Part shown: positions 2,546 through 26,712 of the stretch, piece by piece
Layout: every line of letters begins with the position of its first letter
Numbering within the stretch: position 1 is the first letter of the stretch
From: a virus
IMG/VR virus record: IMGVR_UViG_3300044655_002470
Span: 1 to 37,653 of that record
DNA length: 37,653 nucleotides
Strand: one strand, 5' to 3'
Program-made: the position numbers and the translations under genes
Notes under the pieces: model-generated
Seen by the model: the letters and a program-made list of their open reading frames with translations, nothing else
What the model was told of the DNA's origin: nothing
Database searches by the model: none

Positions 2546-3112
2546 TTAAAGTGGTAATTCTTCTTCCTCTTCTTCCTCTTCTTCTTTTTGACCTTGTGCA
2601 GGTTCTTGAACTTCTCCTTGTGCAGGTTCTTGAGCTTGTCCTTCAACTGGAGTTTGAGCTTGTGGCTCTTCAAATTCTCCTTCTGGAGTTTGACCTTGTG
2701 CAGGTGCTTGAGCTTCTCCTTGTACAGGTGCTTGACCTTGTGCTTGTGGTTCAGCTTGTCCTTGAGTTTGTGCTTGTGGTTCAGTTTGAACTTGTACTTG
2801 CCCTTGTCCTTGAGTTTGAGCTTGAGTTTGACCACCCATTATTGCACCACCAGGAATTTTATCAATATCTAAAAATGTAGTAGTTACATATTTAATTATC
2901 TCTTCAGCAATATCTACGTCTCCAAAGAACTGACGTAAGTTTTTACCAGTAGTATCTTTTACTTTTTTAACATAAGCGTTTATTAAAGACTGAGGTAAAT
3001 CAATCATAGTTTTTACTTTATAAAGATCGTTAACTTGGAAAACAGATTCTTTGATAATCTCTTCTCTATTTTTTTGAATACGAAATTTTTCAAATGCTTT
3101 AACGTGTTTCAT
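2546..3112 (-). CDS. Leader-bearing protein with Gln/Glu/Pro-rich repeat tail
   Basis: 188 residues. It opens with MKHVKAFEKF, a form of the shared leader seen in eleven proteins here, followed at about residues 19-22 by IIKE then S, a T4-gp21-like [IL]xE cleavage site. Residues 24-92 are a mixed helical domain (DLYKVKTMIDLPQSLINAY). From about 95 to 175 it is low complexity: imperfect 8-13 residue units built from Ala, Gln, Gly, Glu and Pro (QAEPQAQGQ, QAPAQGQTP). It ends in a Glu tract and LPL. The acidic, disordered tail and leader suggest an internal head or scaffold-type protein (inference). A TTAATATATA-type motif lies 22 bases upstream. The Leu-rich frames on the opposite strand are shadows of the repeat. 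Confidence 0.65.
   Translation of the reverse strand: MKHVKAFEKFRIQKNREEIIKESVFQVNDLYKVKTMIDLPQSLINAYVKKVKDTTGKNLRQFFGDVDIAEEIIKYVTTTFLDIDKIPGGAIMGGQTQAQTQGQGQVQVQTEPQAQTQGQAEPQAQGQAPVQGEAQAPAQGQTPEGEFEEPQAQTPVEGQAQEPAQGEVQEPAQGQKEEEEEEEEELPL
2565..2835 (-). repeat. Low-complexity Gln/Ala/Glu/Pro codon repeats
   Basis: Degenerate tandem units in DNA (cttgtgcttgtggttcag and variants, read on +) encode the repeat tail of the gene at 2546-3112. The spacing is irregular, so this looks like slippage expansion inside a coding region rather than a CRISPR or satellite. Confidence 0.6.
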
Positions 3113-3133
3113 GTTTTTGTTTATTTTTTATAT

Positions 3134-3147
3134 GATTTATATATTAA
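3134..3147 (-). promoter_or_regulatory. Late-type promoter motif
   Basis: Reads TTAATATATAAATC on the minus strand, 22 bases before the ATG at 3112. One copy of the recurrent motif found before virion genes. Confidence 0.45.
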
Positions 3148-3174
3148 GTATAAAAAGTCATTTTTTGTACTTTT

Positions 3175-3684
3175 TTAGAAAACTCCTAATACTGACAATA
3201 ATAAACCAACTATTACTACGGAACCACCAATTCCACCTACAACCATCTTAGTTTTTAACCTTGATAATTGTTTATCTTTTTCATCAATTACTTGTTGTCT
3301 ATTGGCTAATTGTTTTTCTAATACATTATTTTTTTCCATCCAAGCAATTATCTCACCTTGTAAAGCTTTGATTTTATCATCCTTTACTATTATTTGTTGG
3401 TCTAATTTAGTTATAGTAACATCTAATCTAGCAATTACTTCATCTTTTTCATTAACTACTTTAATACACATATCTTCATAGTCTTTCATTTCTTGTGATA
3501 GTTTTTCAAATTTTTCTAATATATTTGAATTATTATTAAGTTTCATGGCTTGTGGTATAGTCATAACTATAACTTTTTGTCCAAGTGAATCTTTTTCAAA
3601 TCTTGGATATTTGATTTCTTGTGTAACTTGTGAAAACATTGTTGTGAAAATCAATGTCATTAATATTGTAAATAACTTTCTCAT
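3175..3684 (-). CDS. Secreted/membrane coiled-coil protein, spanin-like candidate
   Basis: 169 residues. Residues 1-19 are a signal peptide (MRKLFTILMTLIFTTMFSQ) whose FSQ end is typical of flavobacterial exported proteins. There is no lipobox Cys. Residues 50-145 are heptad-like coiled coil (KLDQQIIVKDDKIKALQGEI, NVLEKQLANRQQVIDEKDKQ). Residues 147-169 form a Gly/Val/Leu C-terminal membrane segment. Together with the adjacent N-anchored coiled-coil gene (3 bases away, same strand) this looks like a two-protein envelope-spanning lysis unit. However, a classical outer-membrane spanin would be a small lipoprotein, so the assignment is tentative. Other possibilities are an envelope protein exposed in infected cells or a tail-chaperone-like coiled coil. 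Confidence 0.5.
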   Translation of the reverse strand: MRKLFTILMTLIFTTMFSQVTQEIKYPRFEKDSLGQKVIVMTIPQAMKLNNNSNILEKFEKLSQEMKDYEDMCIKVVNEKDEVIARLDVTITKLDQQIIVKDDKIKALQGEIIAWMEKNNVLEKQLANRQQVIDEKDKQLSRLKTKMVVGGIGGSVVIVGLLLSVLGVF

Positions 3685-3687
3685 ATC

Positions 3688-4101
3688 TTATTTTATATTT
3701 TTTATTAAATCTTCTAAAAGTTCATCATCAGTTAGTACTTTTGGATTATTTTTCATATCTTCAATTTCCTTTCTTGTTTCTTCCATTCCACCTTTTAATT
3801 CTGTTAACTCGGCTTTGGCTTTTTCTGCATTTTGTTTTGCAATTAAAACATCAGCTTTTGCTTTTCCTACTTCAATTGCGAGTTTTTTGTCTTTCGCATC
3901 TTTTTGGTCATAGATTTCTTTCCAAGCGGCAACTTTTGCCTCAGCAGCTTCTTTTTCTTGTTCTAACTTTTTATATTTTTCTTCAAGTTCTTTAACTTTT
4001 TCTTTAGAAGAATCATATCCTCCTAAGTACCAAGTAAGTCCAAACCCTGTAGAAGATATTAGTAAAAATAAAATAGCAATTTTTCTAAAATCAATTTTCA
4101 T
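3688..4101 (-). CDS. N-anchored coiled-coil membrane protein, inner-spanin-like candidate
   Basis: 137 residues. One N-terminal membrane segment (residues 8-27, IAILFLLISSTGFGLTWYLG) is followed by an uninterrupted Lys/Glu/Ala heptad helix to about residue 118 (KEKVKELEEKYKKLEQEKEA). This topology (short cytoplasmic tail, one membrane pass, long periplasmic coiled coil) is that of inner-membrane spanins. The first gene of a two-gene operon with 3175-3684, with a TTAATATATATAA motif 17 bases upstream. No enzyme motif is visible. Confidence 0.5.
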   Translation of the reverse strand: MKIDFRKIAILFLLISSTGFGLTWYLGGYDSSKEKVKELEEKYKKLEQEKEAAEAKVAAWKEIYDQKDAKDKKLAIEVGKAKADVLIAKQNAEKAKAELTELKGGMEETRKEIEDMKNNPKVLTDDELLEDLIKNIK

Positions 4102-4117
4102 ACTTTTATTTATTTTT

Positions 4118-4130
4118 TTATATATATTAA
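4118..4130 (-). promoter_or_regulatory. Late-type promoter motif for the coiled-coil pair
   Basis: TTAATATATATAA on the minus strand, about 17 bases before the ATG at 4101. Confidence 0.45.
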
Positions 4131-4141
4131 AAAATTATATA

Positions 4142-4149
4142 TATCTTTG
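4142..4149 (+). promoter_or_regulatory. TAnnTTTG box before the HAD gene
   Basis: TATCTTTG fits the Bacteroidetes -7 box and lies 19 bases before the ATG at 4169, but there is no TTG at the -33 spacing. A partial match only. Confidence 0.35.
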
Positions 4150-4168
4150 TATAAAATTATAAAAAAAT

Positions 4169-4681: not shown

Positions 4682-4684
4682 GAT

Positions 4685-4969
4685 ATGCCAACTATTACTA
4701 AGAAAAAAACACAATCTAAAGTACAGGAGATTTTATCTAAACCTTACAAACTAATACTTCATAATGATGATTATAACTCATTTGATTGGGTTATTGAATG
4801 TCTTATGAAAGTATGTAAGCATGAATATGAACAAGCAACACAATGTGCTCATATTGTTCACAATAATGGTAAGTGTGATGTTAAGTATGGTGACTTAGAA
4901 ACCATTTCAGAAATGAAGAATTTACTAAAATCGGCGGGACTCTCAGTCACTATGGAAGTGAATGAATAA
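4685..4969 (+). CDS. clpS: Phage-encoded ClpS, N-degron adaptor of the Clp protease
   Basis: 94 residues and a clear ClpS over its whole length. YKLILHNDDYNSFDWVIECL (residues 21-40) matches the E. coli segment [20 protein letters not shown]. The N-degron pocket residues are kept: Asn27-Asp28 with Asp29 (E. coli Asn34-Asp35-Asp36) and His59 in EQATQCAHIVHNNGKC (E. coli His66). ClpS binds proteins with N-terminal Leu, Phe, Tyr or Trp and passes them to ClpAP or the Bacteroidetes equivalent ClpC/ClpP. The N-terminal 15-20 residues are short and charged, the region that modulates the unfoldase. In the phage it could redirect host proteolysis to chosen proteins or protect others (inference). It is coupled to the HAD gene and ends at a terminator. 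Confidence 0.9.
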   Translation: MPTITKKKTQSKVQEILSKPYKLILHNDDYNSFDWVIECLMKVCKHEYEQATQCAHIVHNNGKCDVKYGDLETISEMKNLLKSAGLSVTMEVNE

Positions 4970-7143: not shown

Positions 7144-7158
7144 AAATTGGACTTTACT

Positions 7159-7176: not shown

Positions 7177-7191
7177 AAAAACCGTTTACTT

Positions 7192-7848: not shown

Positions 7849-8424
7849 TTATCTTCTACCATTTGGATTTTGTTCTTGTGCTAGTAATGTATTTAGACGA
7901 TCTTGAAACTCAGTTCTAATAGGCTCACGTGCGGCAACTTCTCCGGTTACATCACGTCTTTCTATTAGATCATAAACTTTTGTAAGTTCGGCAACCACCT
8001 GCATCGCACTCATTTGTCTAGGTTCATAATCCCAGATTTGAGTTCTTAGATAATCTCTATTTTTAAAGTTATATAAAGGAGCTTTTTTACTTACTTCTTG
8101 TTTATAGATTTGTAAAGTTGGATATTTCTCTTTAACTTTCTTTAAATCTTTCAATTTTGAAATAACTTTTTTTCTTTCAACATCAGTAATATCTCTCTTT
8201 CTTGAAATATTTTCTAATGTAGTTATTAAAGTATCAATATTTGCATAAATGTCTAAAAGTCTTTCTTTGATTACCTTTGAAATGGTTCTACCACCAACAA
8301 ACTGCATTGTTAATAATCCAAGTATAGTTATAGGAAATGATAAAATAGATTTTATTATTCCTCCTAGTGATTCGTTTATTTCTTCTCCTTGAGAGAATGA
8401 TTCAAATGTTTTAATGTTTTTCAT
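7849..8424 (-). CDS. Leader-bearing protein with a hydrophobic segment and helical body
   Basis: 191 residues. The leader MKNIKTFESF is followed by EEINE then SLGG, a good fit to the T4 prohead-protease rule ([IL]xE before a small residue). Residues 20-45 are hydrophobic (GGIIKSILSFPITILGLLTM) and could cross or insert in a membrane once the leader is removed. The rest is helical and basic (RKRDITDVERKKVISKLKDL) and ends in NPNGRR. Function unknown; the features suit a capsid-packaged protein that contacts a membrane on entry (inference). Third gene of a minus operon after 9303-9722 and 8435-9283, with a 10-base gap. Confidence 0.6.
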   Translation of the reverse strand: MKNIKTFESFSQGEEINESLGGIIKSILSFPITILGLLTMQFVGGRTISKVIKERLLDIYANIDTLITTLENISRKRDITDVERKKVISKLKDLKKVKEKYPTLQIYKQEVSKKAPLYNFKNRDYLRTQIWDYEPRQMSAMQVVAELTKVYDLIERRDVTGEVAAREPIRTEFQDRLNTLLAQEQNPNGRR

Positions 8425-9302: not shown

Positions 9303-9722
9303 TTACCAGAATGATCCACCTGGATGTCTGTGAGATTTTTTATCATAATCATCCTTTAAATAAACTTCCGCAGATTTACCTTTCTCGTCAAATACAAGTT
9401 TTATACTATCTCCTGCCTTTGGTGTATCTTCTCTCCAAAATCCATTTGGATATATAGTAGTTTCTATTTTATTGCCATTATTATCAATGAATTGAATTCT
9501 TAATTTACCCTTACTATGTCTTTCTATATCTTTTATAGTACCAGTAGATGTTTTATTTGCATAATCTATATTTTCAATATCATTACCATTTTTATCTTCT
9601 ATACCAACAAAGGTACAAGAACCAAATAATAGACCAAGTGCCGCAACCATACCGGTTGCCACTGATCTTAATCCTTCATCAATATTTTCAAAATCTTCAT
9701 TATATTTTTTAATGTATTTCAT
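9303..9722 (-). CDS. Leader-bearing small protein with Gly/Ala hydrophobic segment and Cys
   Basis: 139 residues. The leader MKYIKKYNEDFENIDE is followed by GLRS, an IxE-Gly site. Residues 22-36 are hydrophobic (VATGMVAALGLLFGSC), ending in Cys like a weak lipobox. If the leader is clipped by a prohead protease, the new N-terminus would carry this segment. Residues 55-125 form a beta-rich domain (KLRIQFIDNNGNKIETTIYP, DSIKLVFDEKGKSAEVYL), perhaps an OB- or SH3-like barrel. The end is His/Gly-rich. First gene of a three-gene operon behind a late-type motif. Confidence 0.58.
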   Translation of the reverse strand: MKYIKKYNEDFENIDEGLRSVATGMVAALGLLFGSCTFVGIEDKNGNDIENIDYANKTSTGTIKDIERHSKGKLRIQFIDNNGNKIETTIYPNGFWREDTPKAGDSIKLVFDEKGKSAEVYLKDDYDKKSHRHPGGSFW

Positions 9723-10665: not shown

Positions 10666-10694
10666 GAAAAAACCGAGATAGTTCTCGGTTTTTT
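10666..10694 (-). terminator. Terminator after the 10693-11268 gene
   Basis: Stem AACCGAGA (10671-10678) / TCTCGGTT (10683-10690), loop TAGT, with T-runs on both strands. Confidence 0.78.
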
Positions 10695-11268
10695 ATAATA
10701 ATTTGAATATAACATTTACTTCAGAAGTTATTATATCAAAAGATAATTTTTCAAAATCTTCTTTACTTAGTTTATGTGACTTCCCTTCAGTTGTAAGATC
10801 TCTCATGTTTGGTAAAGGTATTTCTTCATCATCTCCATACATAAGTTTCATTTGTTCTTTATAAATAAAATAAACATCTAATATATTATAATGTTTCATA
10901 ACACGATCTACCATAAATAGTAATTGATCTTTAACATCATCAATAATAAATTTAGTTTCTTCTATACCACCTTCATCACCATGTCTAACTTGTTTCTGTA
11001 CTCTAATTCTAGCTTCTGTTTTTCTCTCACCATGTATAGTTTCACCACTATGTCCTCTTTCAAATGAGCTTTCTACAAATGATATAGTTATAGTAAAGTC
11101 ATCCTGTAAATAAGTAATAGAATCCAGTATAAACTCTTTAAATTTGGATTGTTTTTCTTCTGAACCAGTTAGGTTATTTTCGGTATTGGGTTCTTGTTCT
11201 TTGATTTTATCTTTTATAAATGTTTTAACCTTATTGATAAATCCTTCGTGTGTTTGTAAATACTTCAT
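10693..11268 (-). CDS. Leader-bearing protein, paralogue of 11271-11768
   Basis: 191 residues. Leader MKYLQTHEGF, then a Lys-rich helix with DKIKEQ (possible IxE site). The body from about residue 45 aligns by eye with the next gene upstream: FILDSITYLQDDFTITISF against IRNEVSYLSDDDRFNILVGF, then EARIRVQKQV, KFIIDDVKDQLLFMVDRVMK, and SKEDFEKLSFD-x-EVNVIFKLL. This is an alpha/beta domain of unknown function. It starts 2 bases after the paralogue's stop, so it is a tandem duplication in one operon. The protein has extra linkers (GSEEKQ; RGHSGETIHGERK) relative to its sister. Confidence 0.6.
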   Translation of the reverse strand: MKYLQTHEGFINKVKTFIKDKIKEQEPNTENNLTGSEEKQSKFKEFILDSITYLQDDFTITISFVESSFERGHSGETIHGERKTEARIRVQKQVRHGDEGGIEETKFIIDDVKDQLLFMVDRVMKHYNILDVYFIYKEQMKLMYGDDEEIPLPNMRDLTTEGKSHKLSKEDFEKLSFDIITSEVNVIFKLL

Positions 11269-11270
11269 AA

Positions 11271-11768
11271 TTAATATATTTTTATAAGAAAAGTTACTTC
11301 TTCAACTTCATCATTATCTGATAATTCTTCAAACTCTTCTATTGATACTTTTTCTTCTTTTATTTTAGCTAACATTTTAACCTTATCATAAGTTTTTTCA
11401 ACTAATTGTGATGTTAGTAAAATAAAATCTTTAATTTCTGATAATTTAAAACTTTCTTTTTCGGTTCTACTAATATTTACTCTAAATATAGTTTTGTATT
11501 TACCTGTAACTAATTCACCTTCTTTATTTACATAAATATCATTTTCACTAAATCCAACTAATATATTAAATCTATCATCATCTGAGAGATAAGATACTTC
11601 ATTTCTAATTAATTGTGATAAATCTTTTTTTGGAAAGTCGTCTGGTAGAGTAGGTTTTAATTCAAATAAAATACCAACTAGTTCAACAACTTCTTGAGTA
11701 TCAAGATCTTCGGGTCTAGTATATTTTATTTTACCGGAGAAGTTCTCATATAATTTTAAGTTTTTCAT
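11271..11768 (-). CDS. Leader-bearing protein, paralogue of 10693-11268
   Basis: 165 residues. Leader MKNLKLYENF followed by SGKIKY, with no clear IxE cleavage site nearby, unlike most of its relatives. The body shares its order of segments with the downstream gene: a DDRFNILVGF strand, an NKEGELVTGKYKTIFRVNIS hairpin, the SEIKDFILLTSQLVEKTYDK helix, then EEFEELSDNDEVEEVTFL. Function unknown. The ATG at 11768 sits only 2-5 bases from a TATATATACT motif which itself follows a terminator, so the transcript may have almost no 5' leader. Confidence 0.6.
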   Translation of the reverse strand: MKNLKLYENFSGKIKYTRPEDLDTQEVVELVGILFELKPTLPDDFPKKDLSQLIRNEVSYLSDDDRFNILVGFSENDIYVNKEGELVTGKYKTIFRVNISRTEKESFKLSEIKDFILLTSQLVEKTYDKVKMLAKIKEEKVSIEEFEELSDNDEVEEVTFLIKIY

Positions 11769-12487: not shown

Positions 12488-15199
12488 ATGAGATATTTGA
12501 ATAAAAGAGAGGATTTTCTTAGAGAAAAAAACTCTAACTCTATAAATAAAATCAAGTCAATAAACGAAGAAGCCGAATTTAACAGTGGACCATTTGCAAA
12601 TGACGTTGGCTGGAATGACTCTTTATTGGGTCGTTTGATTAATCATATTATTAGAAAAGCAAGAATTGCTAGAAAAGTTGGACAAATTAAAAAATTAATA
12701 GAAAGGTTACAAGAACAATTTGATTATCTTGTAGATCAATCTACTGTTTTCTCGTTAGGTGATGATAGTCAATTATTATTACTTAGAATAACACTTTCTT
12801 CTTTCTTTAAAGAGTTGATATTTGCGGTTGAGAATGGACGTCCAGTATCTGAATTAATTGGATTAACAGATGGTGCAATCAAAGTGGTTAATAATGTAAA
12901 GGATTTAGATAAGAAAGATGTTTTATTAGAGGAACTTAAAAAATTTAGAGAGTTTTTAAATCAATTTAAAGATGAAGAAGGTTCTGGTGATGATAGTGGA
13001 GAGAATTCTGAAAGTGGTTCTGGTGATGCAGATGCAGAAGGTATAGTTGCAAATAGTTATGGTTTAATGGTTAAGAATTTAAAAGCACTTGCTTTAATTT
13101 TGGCTAACTATAAAAAAGTTAATACTGGGGCATCAACTGGTACAACTGGTAAACCAAAAGTAACATATATTACTAAAAATGGTGATAAATTAAATCTAAT
13201 TCAAAGTGATAATACTAAAAATCCTAAAAAATTAGATATTGCTACTATTAGAAGTAAAAACCCTAAACTAAGTACATATGCAAAAGATGATCAATCACTT
13301 CCTTCTGGAATGGTTCTTCTTATGGAGGCAGCTGATTCATTTGGTACTGGTGGTTCTGCAAATAGAGGTAAAACTGTTGTTGGTGAAGATCACCTAACAC
13401 AAGCATTCAATAAATTGAAAAAGGATATTGAGGTGTTAATTTCACCTAAAGAAAAAGGTATAGCGGTTGATTATACTTTAATAAATGATATTGCAACAAA
13501 TTCAAATAATACTGATAGTAAAAAACTTATAAAAAATCTTTATAATGAAGTAAATAGATATTTGGTTGGTGATAAGAAAGCAACAATACAAGAAAAAGAT
13601 AAACTTTATAACGAGGGTATTGAAATTTTAAATGATAAAAATAAGATTGTTATTATTGCTGAAAAAATTGCTAGATTTTCAAAAAGAGCTCTTCAATTTC
13701 AGAAAGAAAATTTATATGGTGGTTTAGGAGATTTAAAAGTTCCTTTACAAACATTTGTAACTACTTTACTAGAGATAAATAAAGTACCTATAGTTACTGC
13801 TAAAAAGGAATCTTTATTTAATTACTCTTCATTTTTAGAAGCAAAAAATATATTACCTTCTGGAACACCAAATTCTAATCCTGGTGCAACTGCGGCTGTT
13901 CCTCAAGGTGGTACTGCAAGTGGTGATGCACAAGGTAAAGAAGGTGATGATGCACAAGGTAAAGAAGGTGGTGATCAAAGTAAAAAAATCTTAGAGTTTT
14001 TTAATCAAACTTGTATAGAAGTTAGAGCATTTACTGCAACTGACGAAGAGATTACTAAATTAAGAGAAGAATTAGAAACCAAGAAGAAAGAGGGTGGTGA
14101 AGTGATTATGAGTATGGATCCTATTATTGAAATAATGAATCTTTTTATCAAAGCTTATAAATTATATACAGTTCAAACAATTACAAAAAGAAGTGAGAAG
14201 GTTGATACAAATACATTATCTGAATATACTTCATTTGGTGGTAATTCAAGTGATGGTGGTGATAGTGGTAGAAATGGTCCTTATAGAAATAATAAATTAT
14301 TTGATGCTTGGGAAGAAGGTGTTAATGAAATAAGAAAAAATCGTAAGTATCAAGTTTTCTTTACTAAGAATGCTAAGTTAAGATTACCAACTGTACCTGA
14401 TCCTAATCCTGCTAAAGCAGATGATTGGGAAATTAAAGATAATGCTGGTATTAACTTTAATAGATTTATAAATGACATATTAGATGGTGAGAAGTTGTAT
14501 AAAAGTGGATCTGAAAGAGGTAAAGTTGCAGTATTTGTTGATTCATATTTTGGAGAAGGTGCAGTAACTAAAAACGGTGAGGGTGCCATGGCAACATTAG
14601 ATGAGAAGGATCTTACTGATGCTGCTACATTAGAAAATTCTAAACAGAAATTGAGTTTAGAATTAGGTAAAATTAATCCTGCTCTTAAAGGAGTTGATTT
14701 AAAGGCAAACACAATTTTTACAATTACTTATAAAAACGAAGATGATGTAGTTAAACAAAGAACATTTTTAATTCATGAAGTTTCAGGTGGTAATATATAT
14801 ATGTCATATACCTTAATTAATTATTATAAAAATAAGTACTTGAATAGAATGAATGGAACTCAAAAAGATATACTCAAAGGAACATTTCCTGTGAATTTGG
14901 CAAATGATGGTACACTAGCTCCTAAATATACTATGGTTAAGGTAAATGAGTTTGATAACATTTTCAAACCAAATAATACAATAACTGTTTCTTCAGTTGA
15001 TAATGATGGTACAGTAACTTCACCTGTATTTAAAGGTATTTCTGAGATTTATTGGTTAGTTTATACAGAAAATAAAAAGATTTATACTATTGATGATACT
15101 ACTGAACCAAAATTAGCTAATCTTATTTTACAAGCAGGTAATAAACCTTGTAAAACAACAGTTAATTCTAAATCTGGTATTCAAATTAAAAAATCATAA
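12488..15199 (+). CDS. Large leader-bearing protein, candidate internal capsid protein
   Basis: 903 residues, no known domain recognised. It begins with a divergent leader (MRYLNKREDF) and a Lys-rich stretch ending SINEEAEF, a possible IxE cleavage site at about residue 27. Residues 45-165 are long helices (RKVGQIKKLIERLQEQFDYL). A Gly/Ser/Asp linker follows at about 167-185 (GSGDDSGENSESGSGDAD). A second low-complexity block at about 465-495 has repeated DAQGKEGDD units, and a Gly/Ser patch lies at about 585-600. The C-terminal third is beta-rich (PVFKGISEIYWLVYTENKKI). Two copies of the string SFLEAKN/LMEAADSF hint at internal repeats. Its size, leader and position before the sheath suggest a major packaged or head-associated virion protein (inference). 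Confidence 0.6.
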   Translation: MRYLNKREDFLREKNSNSINKIKSINEEAEFNSGPFANDVGWNDSLLGRLINHIIRKARIARKVGQIKKLIERLQEQFDYLVDQSTVFSLGDDSQLLLLRITLSSFFKELIFAVENGRPVSELIGLTDGAIKVVNNVKDLDKKDVLLEELKKFREFLNQFKDEEGSGDDSGENSESGSGDADAEGIVANSYGLMVKNLKALALILANYKKVNTGASTGTTGKPKVTYITKNGDKLNLIQSDNTKNPKKLDIATIRSKNPKLSTYAKDDQSLPSGMVLLMEAADSFGTGGSANRGKTVVGEDHLTQAFNKLKKDIEVLISPKEKGIAVDYTLINDIATNSNNTDSKKLIKNLYNEVNRYLVGDKKATIQEKDKLYNEGIEILNDKNKIVIIAEKIARFSKRALQFQKENLYGGLGDLKVPLQTFVTTLLEINKVPIVTAKKESLFNYSSFLEAKNILPSGTPNSNPGATAAVPQGGTASGDAQGKEGDDAQGKEGGDQSKKILEFFNQTCIEVRAFTATDEEITKLREELETKKKEGGEVIMSMDPIIEIMNLFIKAYKLYTVQTITKRSEKVDTNTLSEYTSFGGNSSDGGDSGRNGPYRNNKLFDAWEEGVNEIRKNRKYQVFFTKNAKLRLPTVPDPNPAKADDWEIKDNAGINFNRFINDILDGEKLYKSGSERGKVAVFVDSYFGEGAVTKNGEGAMATLDEKDLTDAATLENSKQKLSLELGKINPALKGVDLKANTIFTITYKNEDDVVKQRTFLIHEVSGGNIYMSYTLINYYKNKYLNRMNGTQKDILKGTFPVNLANDGTLAPKYTMVKVNEFDNIFKPNNTITVSSVDNDGTVTSPVFKGISEIYWLVYTENKKIYTIDDTTEPKLANLILQAGNKPCKTTVNSKSGIQIKKS

Positions 15200-15788: not shown

Positions 15789-18700
15789 ATGGCAATTCAA
15801 ATTGGAAAATACAAAAGACCTGGTATCTTCATCGAAGAAATTGACAAGTCAGTATTCAGCACACCTACAGTAGAAGGAATAACTAACCTTATAATAGGAG
15901 TTTCTAAAAAAGGACCTGTTAATACACCGATTAGATTAACAACGGTTAACGACTTAGAAGCGGTTTATGGTCAATTAGATAGAAACTTGGAAAGAAAAGG
16001 ATCTTTTTTCCACAGAACTGTTTCTAAAATGTTAGAATCATCTCCTGTTTTTGCGATGAACGTGTTATTAACGGATGATACATTAGATGTTATTGAGTAT
16101 AAATCATTATCTTCTTCTGCACGTTATCTTAATGATATTAAAAGAGAAGGTCCTTATAGAAGATTCTTTGATACAACTGGTTTCTGGAAGAGAGATACTG
16201 AGGCTTTCATTAATCTAACAAAAAATAACTCTGGTTATGCAGAAAGAGCATTAAGCTTTACTAACTTATCAGACAGATACGTTACTGTATTTGCTGTTAA
16301 AACACAAGTTAGTGGATTTGATAGAACATTACTTGAATGGTATGGTTCTATTGAGAAACTACCACCTTATGTTAATGCTTCAGATTATGCATCTGACTAT
16401 ATGGTTGACGTGGTTGTAATCGCAGGTGACTGGTCAGATTACAGAAACTTAGCTGTAGATAACAGATGGGGTCAATATTTTAATTCTGATGGTTTAATTA
16501 AAGGTGAATTAAGAAACTTTGCAAATGATAGAAATGTTACTTTGTTAGCATATTACGAAGGATTATCATTAATTCCTTACTTTAGAGATTTAGAAGGAAG
16601 AAATATCTTTATTGAAACTACGATTAACAGAGGTACTGATACAACTGGTTTATATTGTGCATTCAATGCTGATTTAGTTGAAGAAGATTACTATACAGGT
16701 TTAGTTGACCTTATCGGTGGTACTTTAATTGACTCTGCTAATCCATTAATAACACAACAAAAAGAAATTGATTTCTTATCATATAAAGAAACTATTATTG
16801 AATCAGTTCCATTTACTGCAACTCCTTTGGATTTACCAGGGAACGTTGTTGCATTATTTGGTACAGTATCAAATAATAATAGTGGTTTAGAAGGTCAAAT
16901 GCCACACGCTTTTGGTAATCCAAAAGAAACAGGTGTTGTTGTTCATCACTCTAATAGAACTGCTTGGTTTACAGAAGGTGCCGTAGTTGGTGTCAATCTT
17001 GCTACTGGTGCTAATGTAGATACAGATGGACATTTTAATCATACAAAAACTGGTTCAGGTACATCATCTATATTAAATGTTAAATATACTTCAACTAACT
17101 TTATTGATAATGGATTTGATGTAAGTCCTTACGCTGTAATTGGTGGTCAGTATATTCCTGTTACATATGGTACATATTCATTTAATGTTAAATCTACTGA
17201 CTTTACATACTCTACGTCTGTAGCAACTTACTCAACAGTATTCACATTAAATACAAGTGGAGTTATCTCTAGTGTTACTAGTTATACACCAAATGTTAGA
17301 CCAAGTGTATCAACATCTGATATAGTATTGGGTTATATTTCATATAATGTTATAAATGGTGGTTTCTCTGGAACGGCATCATTTCAAGAGATTACTATTG
17401 CATCAGACCCTACACTAGAAGAATATGTTATTCCTGGTTATGGAGATGATGTATATTTCCAAGCAGGTACAACACCATACCAAGATTTAACTTATGGTAC
17501 TAATTCAACAGTACATGATTATTATGTTTATGATTTAAGTAACGAGGTTGGTTATTCACAAGGTGATGTTAGATTGGTGTTCTGGGGAACAGCAGGATCT
17601 GATGTTAAAAACTATGTACAGTTTAGAAAACTTAAAATGTTTAATAAAATTACTGAGTTTTTAGGTACTTATAAAGATCAAGCAACTATGATTATTAGTG
17701 TAGATGGTTCTGGTAAAGAAGTTAAGAAAAGTTTAGCTTCTATGACAGTTACTGAAGTAGTAACTTCTTCAACACAAAATAAATCTTTGGTATTAAAAAC
17801 TGGATTATCAAATGTTTCTTATATCTCTGGTGCAAATGGTGGTGTATTTAAAATCTATAAAAACGATAATGAGTTTATTTTAGGTAGTGATAAATTACGT
17901 ACTAAAGATGAACCTGCAAATACTAATATTGGTGTTGTTGGTAAGTATTCAACTTTCTACCAAAAATACTTTAATGGTTTAATTAGTGATGGTGATTATT
18001 TCTATGCAAATAGATTATTAACTACTGCAGATAAAGATACATTGAACGATGAGTTTGTAGATGGTGGTGGTAATTTTACAACTACTATAAATGTTACATT
18101 TGTTAATGGTGAGGCAACTCCTGATCCTACAGTAATTAATATTACAAGTCCTTATGCAGGATATAACTATGTTGTATTTGAAACTCCAAGTGTCAGTGCT
18201 TCAACTGCAGTAAGTAATTTAGATTTACAAATTTTAGATCAAATTTTATTCCCTGTATCACTTAATAATACTACTTCATTAACAATACAACAAAATAGTG
18301 TTAATTCTTCACAGGGTGCTGTTGCTTTAGCAACTGCTTTAGGGTTTACCGGTAGTAATTTCTTCGCATATGAGGTAGCAGAGAATGTTACTTACGAAGA
18401 ATTAACAGGAGTTACTATGATGTATAATACATTAGAAAGTGCTGCAATGAAGTCTTATTTACAAATGTTTGTAGATTTAGATGGTTTATTAGAAGTTTCA
18501 TTTACTAGTGATGATTTAATATCAATTAATTCAATTGAACCAGTTGCTAACTATACATTTAATGTTCAATCTGAATTAAGTAACTTAAAACAAACACTTG
18601 AGATTGAATTACCTACTGGATATACTCAAGTACAAAACAAAATATTAGTTAATGCATCAAGATATAGTGAAGTAAAAGTTGGTGATTTCTTATTAGCAGA

Positions 18701-19955
18701 TAATAGTGATTTCACTCCTGCATTAGGACAAACAAACCTAAGAAACTTAACAAGAATCTTGAGTAAAAGACAATATGCTGGTGATACTAGTTTAACTGAG
18801 ATTACTTGTGATGCTAAAATCTTAAAAACATCATATACTAATCCTCTAACTGGTTTATTAGATTATCAAACAACAAGATACTCAACAGTTGACCAATATA
18901 CAACGACATATAAAGGTATTTCTTTAAAAGGATTTAGAGTTAGACAAGCTTCTTTACCTGATGGTACTGAAACTAAACAAAATCAAATCTTAAACTTGAT
19001 TGCAAAAGGAACACCATTGTTCAAAGCGTTAATTAATAAAGAAGCATTTGACTTTAGATATTTAGTTGACTCATTTGGTTTAGGTTTAACTGAAAGATCA
19101 AAACAACAATTAGTAGATATTTGTGGTGAGAGATTGAATGTATTTGGTTTCATTAATATGCCATCATTAAAATCATTCAAAAACTCTTCATCTCCAAGTT
19201 TCGTAAACACAGAAGGAGTATTACAAGTAGATTTTATTGCTAAAGGTGGAGACCCAGAAAGTAATCCTGCATTCCTTTACTCATTCGGTGATGGAAATGG
19301 AGTATCAACAGTTGGTTATTTCACTCCTTATGTAACAGTAAATGATAATGGTAGACCATTAGATTTTCCACCTGCTGCATATGTTGCGACAACTTATATG
19401 AGAAAACATACTTCTATTGTAAGTAATATTACACCTTGGACAATTGCTGCTGGTGTTACAAATGGTAGAGTTACTAATATTGCTGGTGTTGAACACGATT
19501 TCAACCCAACAGATATTGAGTTCTTAAACCAAGCACAAATGAACCCAATTGTATTGAAAAGAAACAGAGGATATGTAATTGAGACTGAGAATACTGCATT
19601 AACAATCTACAAATCAGCATTATCTTTAATCCACGTGAGAGAAGTATTAGTTGAGTTAGAAAGAGAACTTGCTGCAATGTTGCTTGATTACCAATGGAAG
19701 TTTAATACTCCTGATGTTAGAGCTGAAATTAAATTAAGAGCTGATGTTATTTGTGAAACTTATGTAAACAAAAATGGTTTATATAACTACTTCAACAAAA
19801 TGGATGACGAGAATAATACAGTTGATATTATCGATAGTCAAATTGGAGTTCTTGATACTTATGTAGAACCAATCAAAGGTATGGGTATCATTGTAAACAA
19901 TGTTACAATTTTAAGAACTGGTGCTATTGCAGCTGGTGGTTTCATCAACGCATAA
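15789..19955 (+). CDS. Contractile tail sheath protein (gp18-like), oversized
   Basis: 1388 residues, about twice T4 gp18 (659). The N-terminus has the sheath handshake region (KRPGIFIEEIDKSVFSTPTV, residues 9-28, and TNLIIGVSKKGPVNTPIRLT). The C-terminal 200 residues are the conserved sheath core (about 1225-1388), with AGVTNGRVTNIAGVEHDF, KRNRGYVIETENTALT, LIHVREVLVELERELAAM, and a final beta strand VNNVTILRTGAIAAGG. Between about residues 400 and 1000 lies a large Ser/Thr/Tyr/Gly-rich beta insertion with no counterpart in minimal sheaths, probably exposed on the tail surface. The sheath polymerises around the tube and contracts at infection. It is transcribed alone from a late-type motif and ends at a strong terminator. 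Confidence 0.92.
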   Translation: MAIQIGKYKRPGIFIEEIDKSVFSTPTVEGITNLIIGVSKKGPVNTPIRLTTVNDLEAVYGQLDRNLERKGSFFHRTVSKMLESSPVFAMNVLLTDDTLDVIEYKSLSSSARYLNDIKREGPYRRFFDTTGFWKRDTEAFINLTKNNSGYAERALSFTNLSDRYVTVFAVKTQVSGFDRTLLEWYGSIEKLPPYVNASDYASDYMVDVVVIAGDWSDYRNLAVDNRWGQYFNSDGLIKGELRNFANDRNVTLLAYYEGLSLIPYFRDLEGRNIFIETTINRGTDTTGLYCAFNADLVEEDYYTGLVDLIGGTLIDSANPLITQQKEIDFLSYKETIIESVPFTATPLDLPGNVVALFGTVSNNNSGLEGQMPHAFGNPKETGVVVHHSNRTAWFTEGAVVGVNLATGANVDTDGHFNHTKTGSGTSSILNVKYTSTNFIDNGFDVSPYAVIGGQYIPVTYGTYSFNVKSTDFTYSTSVATYSTVFTLNTSGVISSVTSYTPNVRPSVSTSDIVLGYISYNVINGGFSGTASFQEITIASDPTLEEYVIPGYGDDVYFQAGTTPYQDLTYGTNSTVHDYYVYDLSNEVGYSQGDVRLVFWGTAGSDVKNYVQFRKLKMFNKITEFLGTYKDQATMIISVDGSGKEVKKSLASMTVTEVVTSSTQNKSLVLKTGLSNVSYISGANGGVFKIYKNDNEFILGSDKLRTKDEPANTNIGVVGKYSTFYQKYFNGLISDGDYFYANRLLTTADKDTLNDEFVDGGGNFTTTINVTFVNGEATPDPTVINITSPYAGYNYVVFETPSVSASTAVSNLDLQILDQILFPVSLNNTTSLTIQQNSVNSSQGAVALATALGFTGSNFFAYEVAENVTYEELTGVTMMYNTLESAAMKSYLQMFVDLDGLLEVSFTSDDLISINSIEPVANYTFNVQSELSNLKQTLEIELPTGYTQVQNKILVNASRYSEVKVGDFLLADNSDFTPALGQTNLRNLTRILSKRQYAGDTSLTEITCDAKILKTSYTNPLTGLLDYQTTRYSTVDQYTTTYKGISLKGFRVRQASLPDGTETKQNQILNLIAKGTPLFKALINKEAFDFRYLVDSFGLGLTERSKQQLVDICGERLNVFGFINMPSLKSFKNSSSPSFVNTEGVLQVDFIAKGGDPESNPAFLYSFGDGNGVSTVGYFTPYVTVNDNGRPLDFPPAAYVATTYMRKHTSIVSNITPWTIAAGVTNGRVTNIAGVEHDFNPTDIEFLNQAQMNPIVLKRNRGYVIETENTALTIYKSALSLIHVREVLVELERELAAMLLDYQWKFNTPDVRAEIKLRADVICETYVNKNGLYNYFNKMDDENNTVDIIDSQIGVLDTYVEPIKGMGIIVNNVTILRTGAIAAGGFINA

Positions 19956-23199: not shown

Positions 23200-23201
23200 A
23201 A

Positions 23202-23402: not shown

Positions 23403-23417
23403 TAGGGTTTTTATTTT
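23384..23417. terminator. Bidirectional terminator
   Basis: Stem AAACCCTATT / AATAGGGTTT around an AAAT loop with A and T flanks. Between convergent genes ending at 23402 and 23417. Confidence 0.8.
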
Positions 23418-24175
23418 TAAAATTTTATAAATAATACTTGTACTGGTATACCAAGTTGAAGAGCTATAGTAGACCTTTTGTGTCCTCCAATCAATCTATT
23501 ATCATTACCTTGATTGTCCTTTAAGTTTATAACAAAGGGCGTGGGTAAAGATATTTTACCATTATTTTTAATCAAATCATCATAAGTTATTAAGTATCGT
23601 TCAACATCTGCTTTAATTGGACAAGTAGGTAATGCACTTTTTAGTTCTTCAATACCTTTTATACCTTTATTTTTAACTTGAAAAGAACCTTTCCATCCTC
23701 CCTTTCCAGATGTACTACCGAATATTTTTGTTAAATCTCCCATATTTCCGGTTGAATCAACATCTTTCCAAGTAACTACACTACATGATTTTATAAAATT
23801 TGATACTTCTTTTATACAAGTTGGATCACCGCCCTCTACAATACCATCTTTATCTGGAACACCAACTATATCCTTTTTAAATTCAATGTTTCCAAATCCT
23901 AAACTTTCAGGATTTTTATTTAACAATAGTTTTTTAATTTCTTCCTTATCGGTTGTTTCTTTTTTAAGATAATTTTTTACTACATAATGAAAAACACTAG
24001 GTATTTTAGCATAAACCCTATCAAAGTTATCTGGTTTAAAAAACAACTCCATATTATTTATCAACTCATGTAGTTCTGATAAAATTGTTTTATCATCTGG
24101 TGTAACCCAATCGATTTCAAATTTCATCTCATTTTCATCTAGTATGAATGATTCATATACTTTTAAATACCTCAT
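23417..24175 (-). CDS. Leader-bearing protein with ParB-like C-terminal motif
   Basis: 252 residues. Leader MRYLKVYESFILDEN (ILDE is close to, but not exactly, the IxE rule). The middle is unfamiliar, with a Cys pair region (DPTCIKEVSNFIKSCSVVTW) and Gly-rich loops (GSTSGKGGWKGSF). The last 60 residues read ISLPTPFVINLKDNQ, then RLIGGHKRSTIALQLGIPVQ and VLFIKF. This has the layout of ParB/sulfiredoxin-fold domains, in which a (D/G)GxxR/HKR turn and following helix bind a nucleotide and a strand closes the sheet. Its ATG overlaps the cupin gene's stop by 4 bases. Probably packaged with the other leader proteins (inference); nuclease or nucleotide-binding activity is possible but unproven. Confidence 0.55.
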   Translation of the reverse strand: MRYLKVYESFILDENEMKFEIDWVTPDDKTILSELHELINNMELFFKPDNFDRVYAKIPSVFHYVVKNYLKKETTDKEEIKKLLLNKNPESLGFGNIEFKKDIVGVPDKDGIVEGGDPTCIKEVSNFIKSCSVVTWKDVDSTGNMGDLTKIFGSTSGKGGWKGSFQVKNKGIKGIEELKSALPTCPIKADVERYLITYDDLIKNNGKISLPTPFVINLKDNQGNDNRLIGGHKRSTIALQLGIPVQVLFIKF

Positions 24176-24432
24176 AATTTTTGTAATTTTATTTTCAAAT
24201 CTCCAGTTCCTTTTATAACTCTGTGATAAACTCCCATTGGTATAAAAACTTCACCTTGAATAACTTTTGGTAATTCATCATCTAATTGTACTTGCCAATC
24301 TGTTTCACCAATAGATTCAATTATCCTATCTTCTCTATCTCTGTGCCATTGATAATCTCCAGAGTCAGTATTTTGTTTAAACTCTCTGATAAATATATTA
24401 TCTGATATTATTTCTTCTTTAAACGGTAACAT
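24172..24432 (-). CDS. Small single-domain cupin-like protein
   Basis: 86 residues. QWHRDREDR (28-36) and VFIPMGVYHRVIKG (62-75) fit cupin motifs 1 and 2. His30, Asp32 and His70 could form a 2-His-1-carboxylate metal site as in iron dioxygenases. The protein is too small to be a full prolyl or lysyl hydroxylase and may be a sensor, isomerase or stress-type cupin. It has no capsid leader, although both neighbours do. It is tightly coupled: it begins 1 base inside the upstream stop and its own stop overlaps the next start by 4 bases. It might modify or stabilise the neighbouring proteins before packaging (speculation). Confidence 0.6.
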   Translation of the reverse strand: MLPFKEEIISDNIFIREFKQNTDSGDYQWHRDREDRIIESIGETDWQVQLDDELPKVIQGEVFIPMGVYHRVIKGTGDLKIKLQKL

Positions 24433-25016
24433 TATAAAATCTTATTAATTTTTTCAATTGAGGATTCATCAAATATTGCCACATTTTTAGAACCTCTTTC
24501 TGCAACCATAAATCCATCATATCCTTTTGACTTTATTTGATTGATAATTGGATCACATTCTATTATTTGCCAAGAACCATTCTTTATTAGCCAAAGATAG
24601 TTATAAACAGTTTGTGAAAAATCTTCTAAATCAAATTCCTTTTCGGTATCATAATCAAATCCTTTGAATCCTTTACCTCTATTTGCTATAAATTTTTTAC
24701 CATTTGTAGGATCTTCATATTTATCATCTATCATTTTTTGTAATATTGATTTAAGTTCTAACTCTTTCATAGTCTTTACTTGCATCGGATCACATATTTT
24801 TAGATTTGACTTTATTTTTATTTCCCAAACGGCTCCTTCTGGAAATTGTTCTCTTTCATCGAATCCTGCAAAGTTTTTTGCAAAGTCTAAATTACTTGTT
24901 AAAAATATAGCACCTGCAAATCTTTTTCTCTTTGGTGGAAAATCTCCTTTTCTATTACCATGATATAACTTTTCTTCTATAGATTCAAATATTTTGTATT
25001 CTTTTAAGTATTTCAT
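24432..25016 (-). CDS. Leader-bearing ADP-ribosyltransferase-like protein (Alt-like effector candidate)
   Basis: 194 residues. Leader MKYLKEYKIFES (IFE then S fits the cleavage rule). It is followed directly by a small ART-type fold: LYHGN (about 17-21, the Tyr-His-Gly start of the NAD-binding strand), FAGAIFLTSNLDFAKNFAG (about 33-51, the F-T/S-x-N-x-x-x-A helix), AVWEIKIKSNLKICDP (about 62-77), and KSKGYDGFMVAERGSKNVAIF (169-189, the strand carrying the acidic/ANY region). This order is typical of ADP-ribosyltransferases of phage and polyvalent proteins. T4 Alt is likewise packaged in the head and modifies host RNA polymerase on entry. The catalytic Glu cannot be fixed by eye. An active enzyme injected at infection is the leading hypothesis; an inactive homologue is possible. 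Confidence 0.62.
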   Translation of the reverse strand: MKYLKEYKIFESIEEKLYHGNRKGDFPPKRKRFAGAIFLTSNLDFAKNFAGFDEREQFPEGAVWEIKIKSNLKICDPMQVKTMKELELKSILQKMIDDKYEDPTNGKKFIANRGKGFKGFDYDTEKEFDLEDFSQTVYNYLWLIKNGSWQIIECDPIINQIKSKGYDGFMVAERGSKNVAIFDESSIEKINKIL

Positions 25017-25020
25017 TCTA

Positions 25021-26118
25021 TTATGTTATTTTTATTGCATCAAGCTTTGGTTTTACTATCATATAGATACCCACAGATATTACCAATGTGTCTAATACAT
25101 TTAGTATTGAACCAACGTATGGTATTTTCATAACTGCGGCTTTTATACCTTTTGTAATATCTTCTCCATTAAATCCTACCATTTTCCAAACTTCATCCAT
25201 CGATTTATCTTGTATTGAGTTAGTTAGTTCATCAAAACCACTTGCCTTTGAGACAAAATCTTTAAATTTATTTATACTACCTAAAACTTTATAAAAAATA
25301 TATAACTCTAATATTTGAAATAGAAATACGAAAGATTTTCCAAATCTACTCATAGATTCTGATTTACCTGTTGTCAACCAACAAAAAAATTTATCCATTA
25401 GTTGTGATAGTTTACTTATTCCTTGTTTCATTAAATCCTCGATTTTTGGAATCCAATTAAATGGTGGATAAGTCATTATTTTCTCACCTAATCTTTGTAA
25501 AAATGATTTTTTTTCTTCTTCACCATTATCCTCTAATAAAAAATTATCATCTAAATAAATAAGTCCTTCATTAGTTCCTAAGTTTAATACACCTGAAAAT
25601 GTTTCTGATAATCTAGTCACTAAATCTGTTATAATTTGACCTGATGCTATATATTTTAGTAGTTCTGATATACTCGTTATATAAGATTTTAGTTTAATTA
25701 GTTTTTTATTTTCTATAAATTCGATTAGTGGTTCTATAAATCCACTATCTTTTAACGCATGTTCTTTTATTTTCTGTTCCATTGATAAAAATTGTGTCTT
25801 AACATAATTACCAATTTGTCCTGCTAGTGATTTTGCAAAATCTAATACATCTTTTGCTTTTTTTGCTAAATCAACTAATAGTTCACCTGCTTTAGATTTT
25901 ACTGCTAAAACTCCTCTCTTACCTTTATCTACTAAATCAGAAAACCAGGATTCATTTATCATACCATAGTTAGAGTCTATTAGTATTTTCTCATTTATAG
26001 TTAAATGACTTTCATATAATGAATTGAATATCATAGTAAAGTTAGATATATCATTACTATCAATACCCTCTAATATATTTACTTCTGAAAAATTCTCGTA
26101 TGTCTTTAAGTATCTCAT
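25021..26118 (-). CDS. Leader-bearing protein with C-terminal membrane segments
   Basis: 365 residues. Leader MRYLKTYENF, then VNILE before GID, an exact [IL]xE-Gly site, and a second such site at MINE before SW (about residue 57). After that come amphipathic helices rich in Lys/Ala (DLAKKAKDVLDFAKSLAGQI, about 84-104). The C-terminal 130 residues have hydrophobic segments (FVFLFQILELYIFYKVLG, about 265-282; YVGSILNVLDTLVISVGIYM, about 335-354). If packaged and injected, it could insert in the cell membrane, for example to aid DNA entry or exclusion (inference). Unrecognised family. It precedes the ART gene by 4 bases. Confidence 0.58.
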   Translation of the reverse strand: MRYLKTYENFSEVNILEGIDSNDISNFTMIFNSLYESHLTINEKILIDSNYGMINESWFSDLVDKGKRGVLAVKSKAGELLVDLAKKAKDVLDFAKSLAGQIGNYVKTQFLSMEQKIKEHALKDSGFIEPLIEFIENKKLIKLKSYITSISELLKYIASGQIITDLVTRLSETFSGVLNLGTNEGLIYLDDNFLLEDNGEEEKKSFLQRLGEKIMTYPPFNWIPKIEDLMKQGISKLSQLMDKFFCWLTTGKSESMSRFGKSFVFLFQILELYIFYKVLGSINKFKDFVSKASGFDELTNSIQDKSMDEVWKMVGFNGEDITKGIKAAVMKIPYVGSILNVLDTLVISVGIYMIVKPKLDAIKIT

Positions 26119-26133
26119 ATTATTATAAATTTT

Positions 26134-26712
26134 TTACCAGAAGCCGGGGTACGTACGTCCACCCCACAGATGTCCGTATTTATTTATTCTGCATGCCCAA
26201 TAACCTGCAGTAGTTTTATCTTTCTTAGTATCACACTTATGTCTTGCTGCAAATGATTTTCTTGCTTTAGGATCACTTACCTTAGCAGTTAGACCACCAT
26301 GAACATCTCCAAAGGCAATCTTTTTAACATTTCCAGTTTTAGGATTTCTAACATAAACATGGTATTTCTTAGTACCACCTCTCATAGGTTTATTCAACTC
26401 TACTTCTCTACCTTTGTATTCTGCTTCGTTTAATTCTTCAATAGTTTCCATTGGTAAATCTAAAGGAACTATTTGACCTTCATATTCGGCAAATCGACCT
26501 ATATCAGTTGATTCAAATAATTCGGTATCTAATTCAGATAATTCGATTTGATTTGCATCAAATAATTGTCTTGCTTCTTTAATTAGGTTAAAGTATTGAT
26601 TAGATCCAGGTCTAAATACATTTTCAACAATAGGTTTATTATTATCGATGTGATATTGTAGATTTTCTGATATTCTACCAGAGAATGATTCAAATAGTTT
26701 TAAGTACTTCAT
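26134..26712 (-). CDS. Leader-bearing protein with conserved Cys/His phage domain
   Basis: 192 residues. Leader MKYLKLFESF, then GRISE before N. The C-terminal 75 residues have a pattern I associate with uncharacterised proteins in many large phages: KYHVYVRNPKTGNVKKIAFG (about 114-133), DPKARKSFAARHKCD (about 147-161), GYWACRI (about 168-174). Cys and His in RHKCD and YWACR could bind metal. The function in other phages is not established; virion association is likely. It is the promoter-proximal gene of the 26712-23417 cassette and has a late-type motif 20 bases upstream. Confidence 0.6.
   Translation of the reverse strand: MKYLKLFESFSGRISENLQYHIDNNKPIVENVFRPGSNQYFNLIKEARQLFDANQIELSELDTELFESTDIGRFAEYEGQIVPLDLPMETIEELNEAEYKGREVELNKPMRGGTKKYHVYVRNPKTGNVKKIAFGDVHGGLTAKVSDPKARKSFAARHKCDTKKDKTTAGYWACRINKYGHLWGGRTYPGFW

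Follow-up and report, generated by a model that had tools for sequence, protein, structure and literature searches.

The closest described counterpart of the element reported here is the capsid targeting sequence (CTS) of phage T4. For the internal protein IPIII, excerpts of PMC9026906 report that ten residues suffice for targeting, that, according to genetic data, targeting involves mainly residues 4 and 7 and processing residues 8 and 10, and that the protease gp21 cleaves after L/I-x-E. Here, we describe an N-terminal leader of similar design on eleven open reading frames (ORFs) of a 37,653-nucleotide stretch of viral DNA (IMG/VR record IMGVR_UViG_3300044655_002470, positions 1 to 37,653; this whole stretch is hereafter called the window), and on numerous genes of related megaphages. 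We put at roughly three in four the probability that this leader is a T4-like capsid-targeting propeptide, borne by about 100-130 addressed proteins per genome.

An earlier, sequence-only reading of the window had likened the leader to the sequence MKTYQEFIAE, which it assigned to the T4 internal proteins and to Alt. This start is indeed found on IPII and IPIII (MKTYQEFIAE/A; here and below, an oblique marks a known or predicted cut), but neither on IPI, which begins MKTFKEF, nor on a 683-residue T4 ORF at 123454, which we take to be Alt and which begins (M)MELITELFDE.

Origin of the window and detection of leaders

The window covers a fragment of the genome of a T4-type megaphage, whose relatives are uncultured genomes of 635-642 kb. 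An 85-kb IMG/VR contig, G007, contains it at 99.965% identity, and the terminase of the window is 76% identical to that of W01 (634,780 bases) and 73% identical to that of W04 (642,428 bases), both uncultured genomes; identity is 40-42% to the terminases of further genomes of 636 and 735 kb, the latter probably being the genome of that length described among the huge phages of PMC7162821. All gene sets are our own simple, uncurated ORF calls, which yield 36 gene-like ORFs for the window, and W05, W07 and G005 are covered in part only. Leaders were detected with a 10-column position matrix derived from strict-pattern hits, covering residues 2-11 and applied at a threshold score of 6. Window ORFs are named by their lower coordinate.

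Eleven leader genes in the window

The eleven ORFs for which a shared N-terminus had been claimed are all present and all start with the leader, and none of the 25 other gene-like ORFs does. Matrix scores in the window are bimodal, ranging from 9.4 to 25.9 for the eleven leader ORFs and not exceeding -5.9 for the other 25; they also confirm that the sheath, the tube, the terminase, the gp47-like nuclease and the 2015-residue ORF lack the leader, as had been proposed. When the matrix was trained on W01 alone or on W04 alone, the same proportion of window ORFs was retrieved (11/36, versus 0.06 and 0.04 for shuffled N-termini). The leader of the window lies near M[KR]x[LIV]Kx[YF], with 10693 (MKYLQTH) and 12488 (MRYLNKR) deviating from this core in residues 5 and 7.

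The bodies behind the leader had been described as unrelated, which stands for most of them. However, 10693 and 11271 are paralogous to each other (7e-7 in a BLASTP alignment of the full-length proteins with their leaders), so that the eleven ORFs represent ten body families; for most of these bodies no convincing family match was obtained. The paralogous pair has a distant HHalign match (probability 92.5, in an alignment that includes the leader itself) to a fast-evolving family with the motif D-I-x-x-x-L-x-D-x-G, the largest cargo family found, with 75 members in W01 and W04 together, 66 of them bearing a leader; the profile of this family found no member in the window.

The same reading had noted an [IL]xE motif followed by a small or polar residue soon after most leaders. 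Such a motif, with S, A, N or G as the following residue, occurs within residues 5-30 of 8 of the 11 leader ORFs versus 1 of the 25 others (Fisher p = 4e-5), and within residues 9-30 of 7 versus 1 (p = 3e-4). The observation is thereby upheld for the set, with weak candidates in 10693 (IKE/Q), 12488 (INE/E) and 15199 (FLE/A), and with LYE/N at residue 8 as the sole candidate in 11271. The propeptides predicted in the window measure at most 27 residues.

The leader across megaphage genomes

For the whole genome, the estimate of at least eleven marked proteins is far too low. The leader was detected on 96 of 921 genes in W01 and on 129 of 958 in W04 (shuffle mean 0.8 each), i.e. on about 10-14% of genes, or one in seven to ten, and these numbers rise to 107 and 137 if any start within the first 30 residues is allowed. 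Internal methionine windows reached the threshold in only 2 of 3155 (W01) and 4 of 3336 (W04) cases. The leader is likewise present on 21 of the 107 genes of G007, on 23 of the 217 genes of a 179.6-kb relative close to the window (G009) and, across 80 IMG/VR neighbourhoods of the 2546 family, some of them from the window's own virus, on 122 of 936 distinct genes. Counts were 4/123 and 6/81 in two parts of W05, 11/177 in the part of W07, 1/143 in the part of G005, 9/1002 in W06 (shuffle mean 0.8) and 1/290 in the cultured Sphingomonas phage PAU; no protein reached the threshold in PTm1 (0/301), MA9V-1 (0/262), T4 (0/255), Syn9 (0/196), phi14:2 (0/114), MaF61 (0/189) or RM378 (0/151).

In 1,879 unselected N-termini from W01 and W04, K2, H/Y/K3, L/I4, K5, Y/F7, F10 and E11 were among the strongest enrichments. 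The strict hits are of two types, type A reading MK[YH][LI]KxYK[IL]FE/S (n = 69) and type B reading MK[YH][LI]Kx[FY]E[SN][FY] (n = 55), the latter being the commoner class in the window, and relaxed hits add a third form, MK[HY]L[KR]x[FY]NE/S. Position 4 is hydrophobic in 100% and position 7 in 97% of 236 leaders, against 12% or less for positions 5, 6 and 8; these leaders were selected by a matrix that itself spans positions 4 and 7, and the unselected N-termini also favour L/I at 4 and Y/F at 7. These two conserved hydrophobic positions correspond to the main targeting positions of T4 IPIII, as given in the excerpts of PMC9026906.

Candidate protease sites and head genes

Leaders of type A are often followed by a motif expected of a gp21-type protease: [ILM]xE[SANG] is found at residues 9-14 in 38 of 69, versus 54 of 1791 non-leader proteins (p = 7e-35). 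At the residue behind E11, to which the matrix does not extend, S is found in 36 of 79 cases, against a background of 7%. A broader measure, hydrophobic-x-E-small within residues 5-20, gives 134 of 236 leaders versus 169 of 1644 others; as residues 2-11 enter the matrix, this measure is in part circular. Type B leaders may be cut at E8 (LFE/S, TFE/N), but no more than 17 of the 55 have [ILM]xE at residues 6-9. In G007, which contains the window, [IL]xE[SANG] occurs by residue 25 in 11 of 21 leader proteins versus 8 of 85 others.

The relatives encode the head genes that such sites would call for. An S77 (gp21-type) protease match at E <= 1 was obtained in 7/7 of the relatives first examined, exceeding the curated cut-off in three (PTm1, W07 and PAU), and a gp23 match over the cut-off was obtained in all seven. 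The protease ORF adjoins the capsid gene and measures 589-807 residues in W01 and W03-W07, compared with 246 residues in PAU and 1347 in MA9V-1; in the former group, the protease is apparently fused to the scaffold. G009 has both genes: its protease ORF lies at 132430, and its capsid protein reads INE/NAYVNAS. Candidate sites before the GMG motif of the capsid protein, chosen by eye in seven aligned non-T4 sequences, read INE/N (W01, W04), MNE/N, LYE/N, IHE/N, INE/S and LME/N. Both genomes in which no protease was detected were also without this leader.

Two short genes link the leader to a copy of part of the capsid protein. W01_93266 (84 residues) and W04_80294 (81 residues) consist of a leader, a candidate site (FIE/N and FNE/D, respectively) and a stretch resembling the N-terminal arm of the predicted mature major capsid protein. 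Aligned with the capsid protein of their own genome, they score 94 and 80, values reached by 0 of 1000 shuffles each (0 to 4 of 1000 for the other capsid proteins tried), and by our own count their candidate sites lie one or two residues closer to GMG than in the capsid protein. These capsid-arm copies are the best internal evidence for a predicted head-protease site at the leader's end. Their genes are located at 92-94 kb in W01 (L028:13266-13517) and at 80 kb in W04 (L138:294-536).

Modular leaders and their cargo

Homologous bodies carry differing leaders, or none, across lineages. The RNA ligase begins with MKKLHRYNSFIKE/S in W04 and with MKLFKYIEFINE/N in W01, and has no leader in W06 and T4. 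In the 572865 family, the leader ends in ISE/A or INE/A in W01 and W04 and one W05 member has FLLE/R, whereas two W05 paralogues start MPLRDE and MALRDE at the aligned body start; leader-less homologues of this family and of the RNA ligase begin near the position at which the leader ends. A W01 methyltransferase (Pfam 1.6e-12) has IFE/N, where its homologues have FVFE/N (W04) and FINE/A (W06).

For the 26134 family, 80 of 151 relatives were kept, of which 79 were examined for the leader and 20 hand-chosen ones aligned. SE is invariant in these 20 while the residues upstream vary, 22 of the 80 kept matches start only at residue 14 or 15, at ISE, and a score of at least 6 is reached by only 31 of 79 members; taken together, this suggests that the site belongs with the body and that the leader is often replaced. 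Conversely, the 2546 family keeps the leader and II[KR]E/[SA] in 27 of 27 distinct N-termini (80 ortholog ORFs, including that of the window), and the 24432 family keeps its leader at 13 of 13 loci examined, six of them 98-100% identical to the window (a fourteenth locus is a fragment without N-terminus). In a further set of relatives, 80 of 181 were kept.

Other lineages have leaders of their own. PAU bears MK[TSG][LI]xxLYE/[ASGN] on 18 of 290 proteins (shuffles 0.0; none in 17 other gene sets), and 31 of the 1002 genes of W06 start with an [FY][IL]xE/small leader (expected number 1.4), both patterns having been drawn up after viewing the hits and both having shuffle controls. The W06 pattern occurs 10 times in W01 and 12 times in W04, against 1.3 expected, and W07 has starts of the type MKYIxxYxDFINE/A. 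In PAU, 13 of the 18 leader genes lie within 20 genes of gp21, which was matched by 0 of 20,000 permutations. With differing leaders in PAU, W06, W07 and T4, the signal looks lineage-specific with a common design. PMC7162821 mentions extensions of the phage-encoded ribosomal protein S21, which it terms 'basic and aromatic'; one S21-like regular expression, applied in case the leader was such an extension, found nothing in the genomes examined.

Genes with a homologue in T4 are almost devoid of leaders. The best hit of a T4 protein was a leader protein in none of 28 rows for W01 (27 distinct) and in one of 30 rows for W04 (25 distinct), the RNA ligase. Most of these rows presumably correspond to polymerase, helicase, recombination, nucleotide, terminase, portal, sheath and capsid genes, with a few homing endonucleases. 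At a tagging rate of 10-14% of genes, one would expect some three leaders in each genome, which makes this scarcity modest evidence.

The cargo was scanned with Pfam in an alignment of 121 proteins, comprising 120 of the 124 strict leaders and window ORF 9303 (four proteins running across locus borders were left out). This yielded two NUDIX and two DUF6576 proteins, one each of RNA ligase, SET, HNH and PQ-loop, and weaker single hits. Two further groups were noticed in passing. A multi-copy family has several members per megaphage (W01 416232 and 90898; W04 321131 and 251650; W06 65144 and 437060), with 341-656 residues in four measured members and with other F[IL]xE-type leaders at the start of several members; two members scanned had no Pfam match. 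Proteins in which a [VI]VDVQ motif recalls isochorismatases, and which bear lineage-specific leaders, are encoded at W01 182970, W04 207650, W06 455943, G007 78927 and G009 116844, and two of these scanned likewise had no Pfam match.

Function of the leader and alternative explanations

The prohead-loading code put forward in the sequence-only reading is well supported at the sequence level, given the head genes of the relatives, the matching targeting positions, the type A sites and the arm copies on the one hand, and the lineage-specific leaders on shared cargo and the near-absence of leaders from T4-homologous genes on the other. As to the remainder of that proposal, leader proteins may be cleaved, packaged in the capsid and injected as effectors.

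The proposed course of events would be as follows. Residues 4 and 7 of the leader would attach to the prohead core, that is, to a gp22-like scaffold which seems to form a single protein with the gp21-like protease, and any protein bearing a leader would thereby be built into the prohead. A gp21-type protease would then cut after E, the propeptide would leave, and the mature cargo would remain with the DNA. Many cargos would enter the host together with the DNA and act early, for instance as enzymes of nucleic-acid repair or modification. In its full form, this amounts to a modular delivery code by which about one protein in seven to ten (100-130 per genome) receives a capsid address, has it removed by the prohead protease and is injected at infection, the cargo including repair or modification enzymes and a capsid-arm copy; since leaders differ among lineages, cargo would be swapped by exchange of bodies behind each phage's own address. 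We regard the chances for and against this full form as about even.

Several observations weigh against capsid targeting. Protease matches stay below the curated cut-off in W01 (1.1e-4), W04 (1.8e-5) and G009 (1.5e-4), and one cellular control genome also yields a sub-threshold S77 match. The gp21-type protease gene, the locating of which had been proposed as a check, thus has S77 matches in relatives but none in the window record, where the control of that search likewise found nothing, nor in the fragments G007 and G008. PTm1, MA9V-1, T4, Syn9 and RM378 have the protease, yet no protein at the threshold of the leader matrix. The mature capsid-protein site of T4, FLTE/A, does not align with the candidate megaphage site. 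Sites within residues 9-30 of type B leaders are only weakly enriched (10/55 versus 152/1791, p = 0.024), and in G009 [IL]xE[SANG] occurs by residue 25 in only 6 of 23 leader proteins versus 17 of 189 others. Most leader cargos have no recognisable function in Pfam, and 66 of the 244 leader proteins of the any-start count belong to the DIxxxLxDxG family, so that the raw count overstates independent acquisitions. Finally, our searches turned up no proteomic data on the virions of these phages.

The alternative that fares best shares the first step: the leader would recruit proteins to the prohead core, and many of these would be scaffold or core parts degraded or expelled during maturation rather than injected. 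Several window leader proteins do lie near the terminase and the sheath, with orthologs at the same places in W01, and some leader proteins could indeed be such consumed parts. As a general explanation we consider it unlikely, since the bodies include NUDIX, RNA ligase, SET and HNH domains and a methyltransferase, and since the 124 strict leaders fall into 99 body clusters, unlike a dedicated scaffold.

It is less probable still that the leader directs proteins elsewhere, for instance to a compartment built by the phage, to the membrane or to a site of replication. Nucleus-forming jumbo phages sort proteins inside and outside their compartment (PMC13282480, in the part available), and a hydrophobic segment shortly behind the leader is seen in several leader proteins. 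However, T4-homologous replication genes have no leader, the analogous leader genes of PAU cluster around the prohead genes, and leaders often end in protease-type sites.

A shared N-terminus could also be a translation or recombination module without targeting role, i.e. favourable first codons or a copied 5' segment. In each of the eight gene sets examined, lysine at position 2 does rank among the top three residues by enrichment. Yet all 124 strict leaders are distinct as DNA 30-mers and their third codon positions are mostly near background, which points to selection at the level of the peptide; residues 4 and 7 and E/S are constrained in the protein, and the 2546 family retains both leader and site. 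A DNA-level repeat or copied 5' module as the origin of the leader is ruled out by the 124 distinct 30-mers, and we give this explanation as a whole very little credence. Least credible of all is a turnover tag, perhaps tied to the ClpS-like adaptor encoded beside the terminase (window ORF 4685-4969, with an ORF of matching size and N-terminus next to the W01 terminase), since ClpS binds bulky N-termini, whereas cleavage behind E would frequently leave S, N, A or G as the new N-terminal residue, and the leader is also present on large conserved proteins beside the sheath.

Leader genes and neighbouring features of the window

On the terminase side, the leader protein at 2546-3112 (minus strand), with a glutamine/alanine-rich tail and orthologs in W01, W04 and W06, has the leader MKHVKAFEKF..EEIIKE/S (3047-3112, score 19.7), with a predicted cut after residue 22. 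Nearby on the minus strand, at 3175-4101, two adjacent ORFs have hydrophobic N-termini and charged, coiled-coil-like middles, one of them also a hydrophobic C-terminus; they could be a spanin- or membrane-type pair, and similar ORFs lie at W01 181321-182258. The ClpS-like ORF (4685-4969, plus strand), which adjoins the terminase, matches phrog_27368 (4.8e-8), and its W01 look-alike is found at 180414.

Four leader genes follow on the minus strand. The protein at 7849-8424 has a hydrophobic segment shortly behind its predicted site and the leader MKNIKTFESFSQGEEINE/S (8371-8424, score 20.4; SINE/E in the W04 homologue). That at 9303-9722 carries MKYIKKYNEDFENIDE/G (9675-9722), with a score of 9.4, the minimum of the eleven, ahead of a signal- or lipoprotein-like hydrophobic segment. 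Such segments close behind the leader also occur in W04 56658, 544849 and 580926, and in 9303 and W04 580926 they are followed by a cysteine, so that the cargo might enter a membrane once trimmed. The two paralogues lie at 10693-11268 (leader core MKYLQTHEGF at 11239-11268, score 16.8, the later IKE/Q being a poor site; body possibly of distant DIL type) and at 11271-11768 (leader core MKNLKLYENF at 11739-11768, score 20.3), relatives of the latter being encoded at nine IMG/VR loci.

Two leader genes on the plus strand, both with orthologs in W01 and W04, precede the sheath: a 903-residue protein at 12488-15199, two genes upstream (leader MRYLNKREDF..SINE/E at 12488-12568, score 14.9), and the protein at 15199-15729, immediately upstream (leader MRHLKNYKLFLE/A at 15199-15234, score 22.2). 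The tail sheath itself (15789-19955, plus strand) is very large, with 1388 residues, compared with 1295 in W01 and 1283 in W04.

The remaining four are on the minus strand. The protein at 23417-24175 (leader MRYLKVYESFILDE/N at 24134-24175, score 19.0) has a weakly phrog_7527-like C-terminus (E 0.0024), and the 365-residue protein at 25021-26118 (leader MRYLKTYENFSEVNILE/G at 26068-26118, score 23.6) has a W01 homologue that likewise bears a leader. The protein at 26134-26712 (leader MKYLKLFESFSGRISE/N at 26665-26712, score 23.6) has a C-terminal domain matching phrog_7595, a family of unknown function (E 1.7e-13); the model of its cargo has a predicted local distance difference test score (pLDDT) of 67.9 and no PDB match at E <= 0.001. 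The highest score, 25.9, belongs to the model type A leader MKYLKEYKIFE/S (24984-25016) of the protein at 24432-25016, which contains an LYHG..IFLT motif reminiscent of ADP-ribosyltransferases (ARTs). This protein has no Pfam match, no ART appears among its weak PHROG matches or its six weak PDB profile matches, and its AlphaFold model has a mean pLDDT of 53; the ART identity is an unconfirmed, motif-level lead.

Implications and comparison with known systems

For most huge-phage genes, no function is known. Should the leader prove to be a capsid address, each such genome could be read, by means of a short N-terminal pattern, for a list of virion-borne proteins, which would be the first to consider for roles in host takeover and anti-defence. 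Addressed internal proteins would then number about a hundred instead of the handful of T4, which would provide an added reason for very large heads, and the leaders could serve as short, ready-made tags with which to load foreign proteins into giant capsids.

Among the literature matches listed in open-access searches, no shared leader in huge phages was found, and nothing on the PAU virion; the available parts of a jumbo-phage survey (PMC7824862) and of a 2026 review (PMC13282480) contain no such leader. A survey of packaged ARTs, Nudix and Macro proteins, T4 Alt included (PMC9503650, accessible in part), is akin to our results in that NUDIX is found in 2 of the 121 leader proteins and an unconfirmed ART-like motif in 24432; in that survey, however, packaging was deduced from gene neighbourhood and domain fusions and not from a shared leader.

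Compared with the T4 CTS of IPI, IPII and IPIII, the megaphage leader is alike in being short, N-terminal and placed on otherwise differing proteins, in its hydrophobic positions 4 and 7 (MKT[YF][QK]EF in T4, with an E/A end in IPII and IPIII), and in the T4-type protease and capsid genes of the megaphage relatives. It differs in sequence, which lies near MK[YH][LI]Kx[YF], in its varying ends (E at 8, 9, 11 or later), in the coexistence of three sub-forms in one genome, and in its presence on about 10-14% of the genes of W01 and W04, against a handful in T4. With regard to shared descent, none of the 255 T4 proteins reaches the matrix threshold, and the leader is too short for comparison.

The inner-body and ejection proteins of phiKZ and SPN3US provide the other parallel: in the accessible portion of PMC5694885, these giant phages have a gp21-type protease and many head proteins, and the propeptides of SPN3US are proposed as prohead-targeting. 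Most SPN3US propeptides, however, exceed 100 residues, with one identical pair (gp53 and gp54), whereas the megaphage leader spans roughly 8-27 residues and is common to about 100 proteins. As far as our literature searches show, what is new here is this scale, together with the distinct form of the leader, its lineage-specific versions and the capsid-arm copies.

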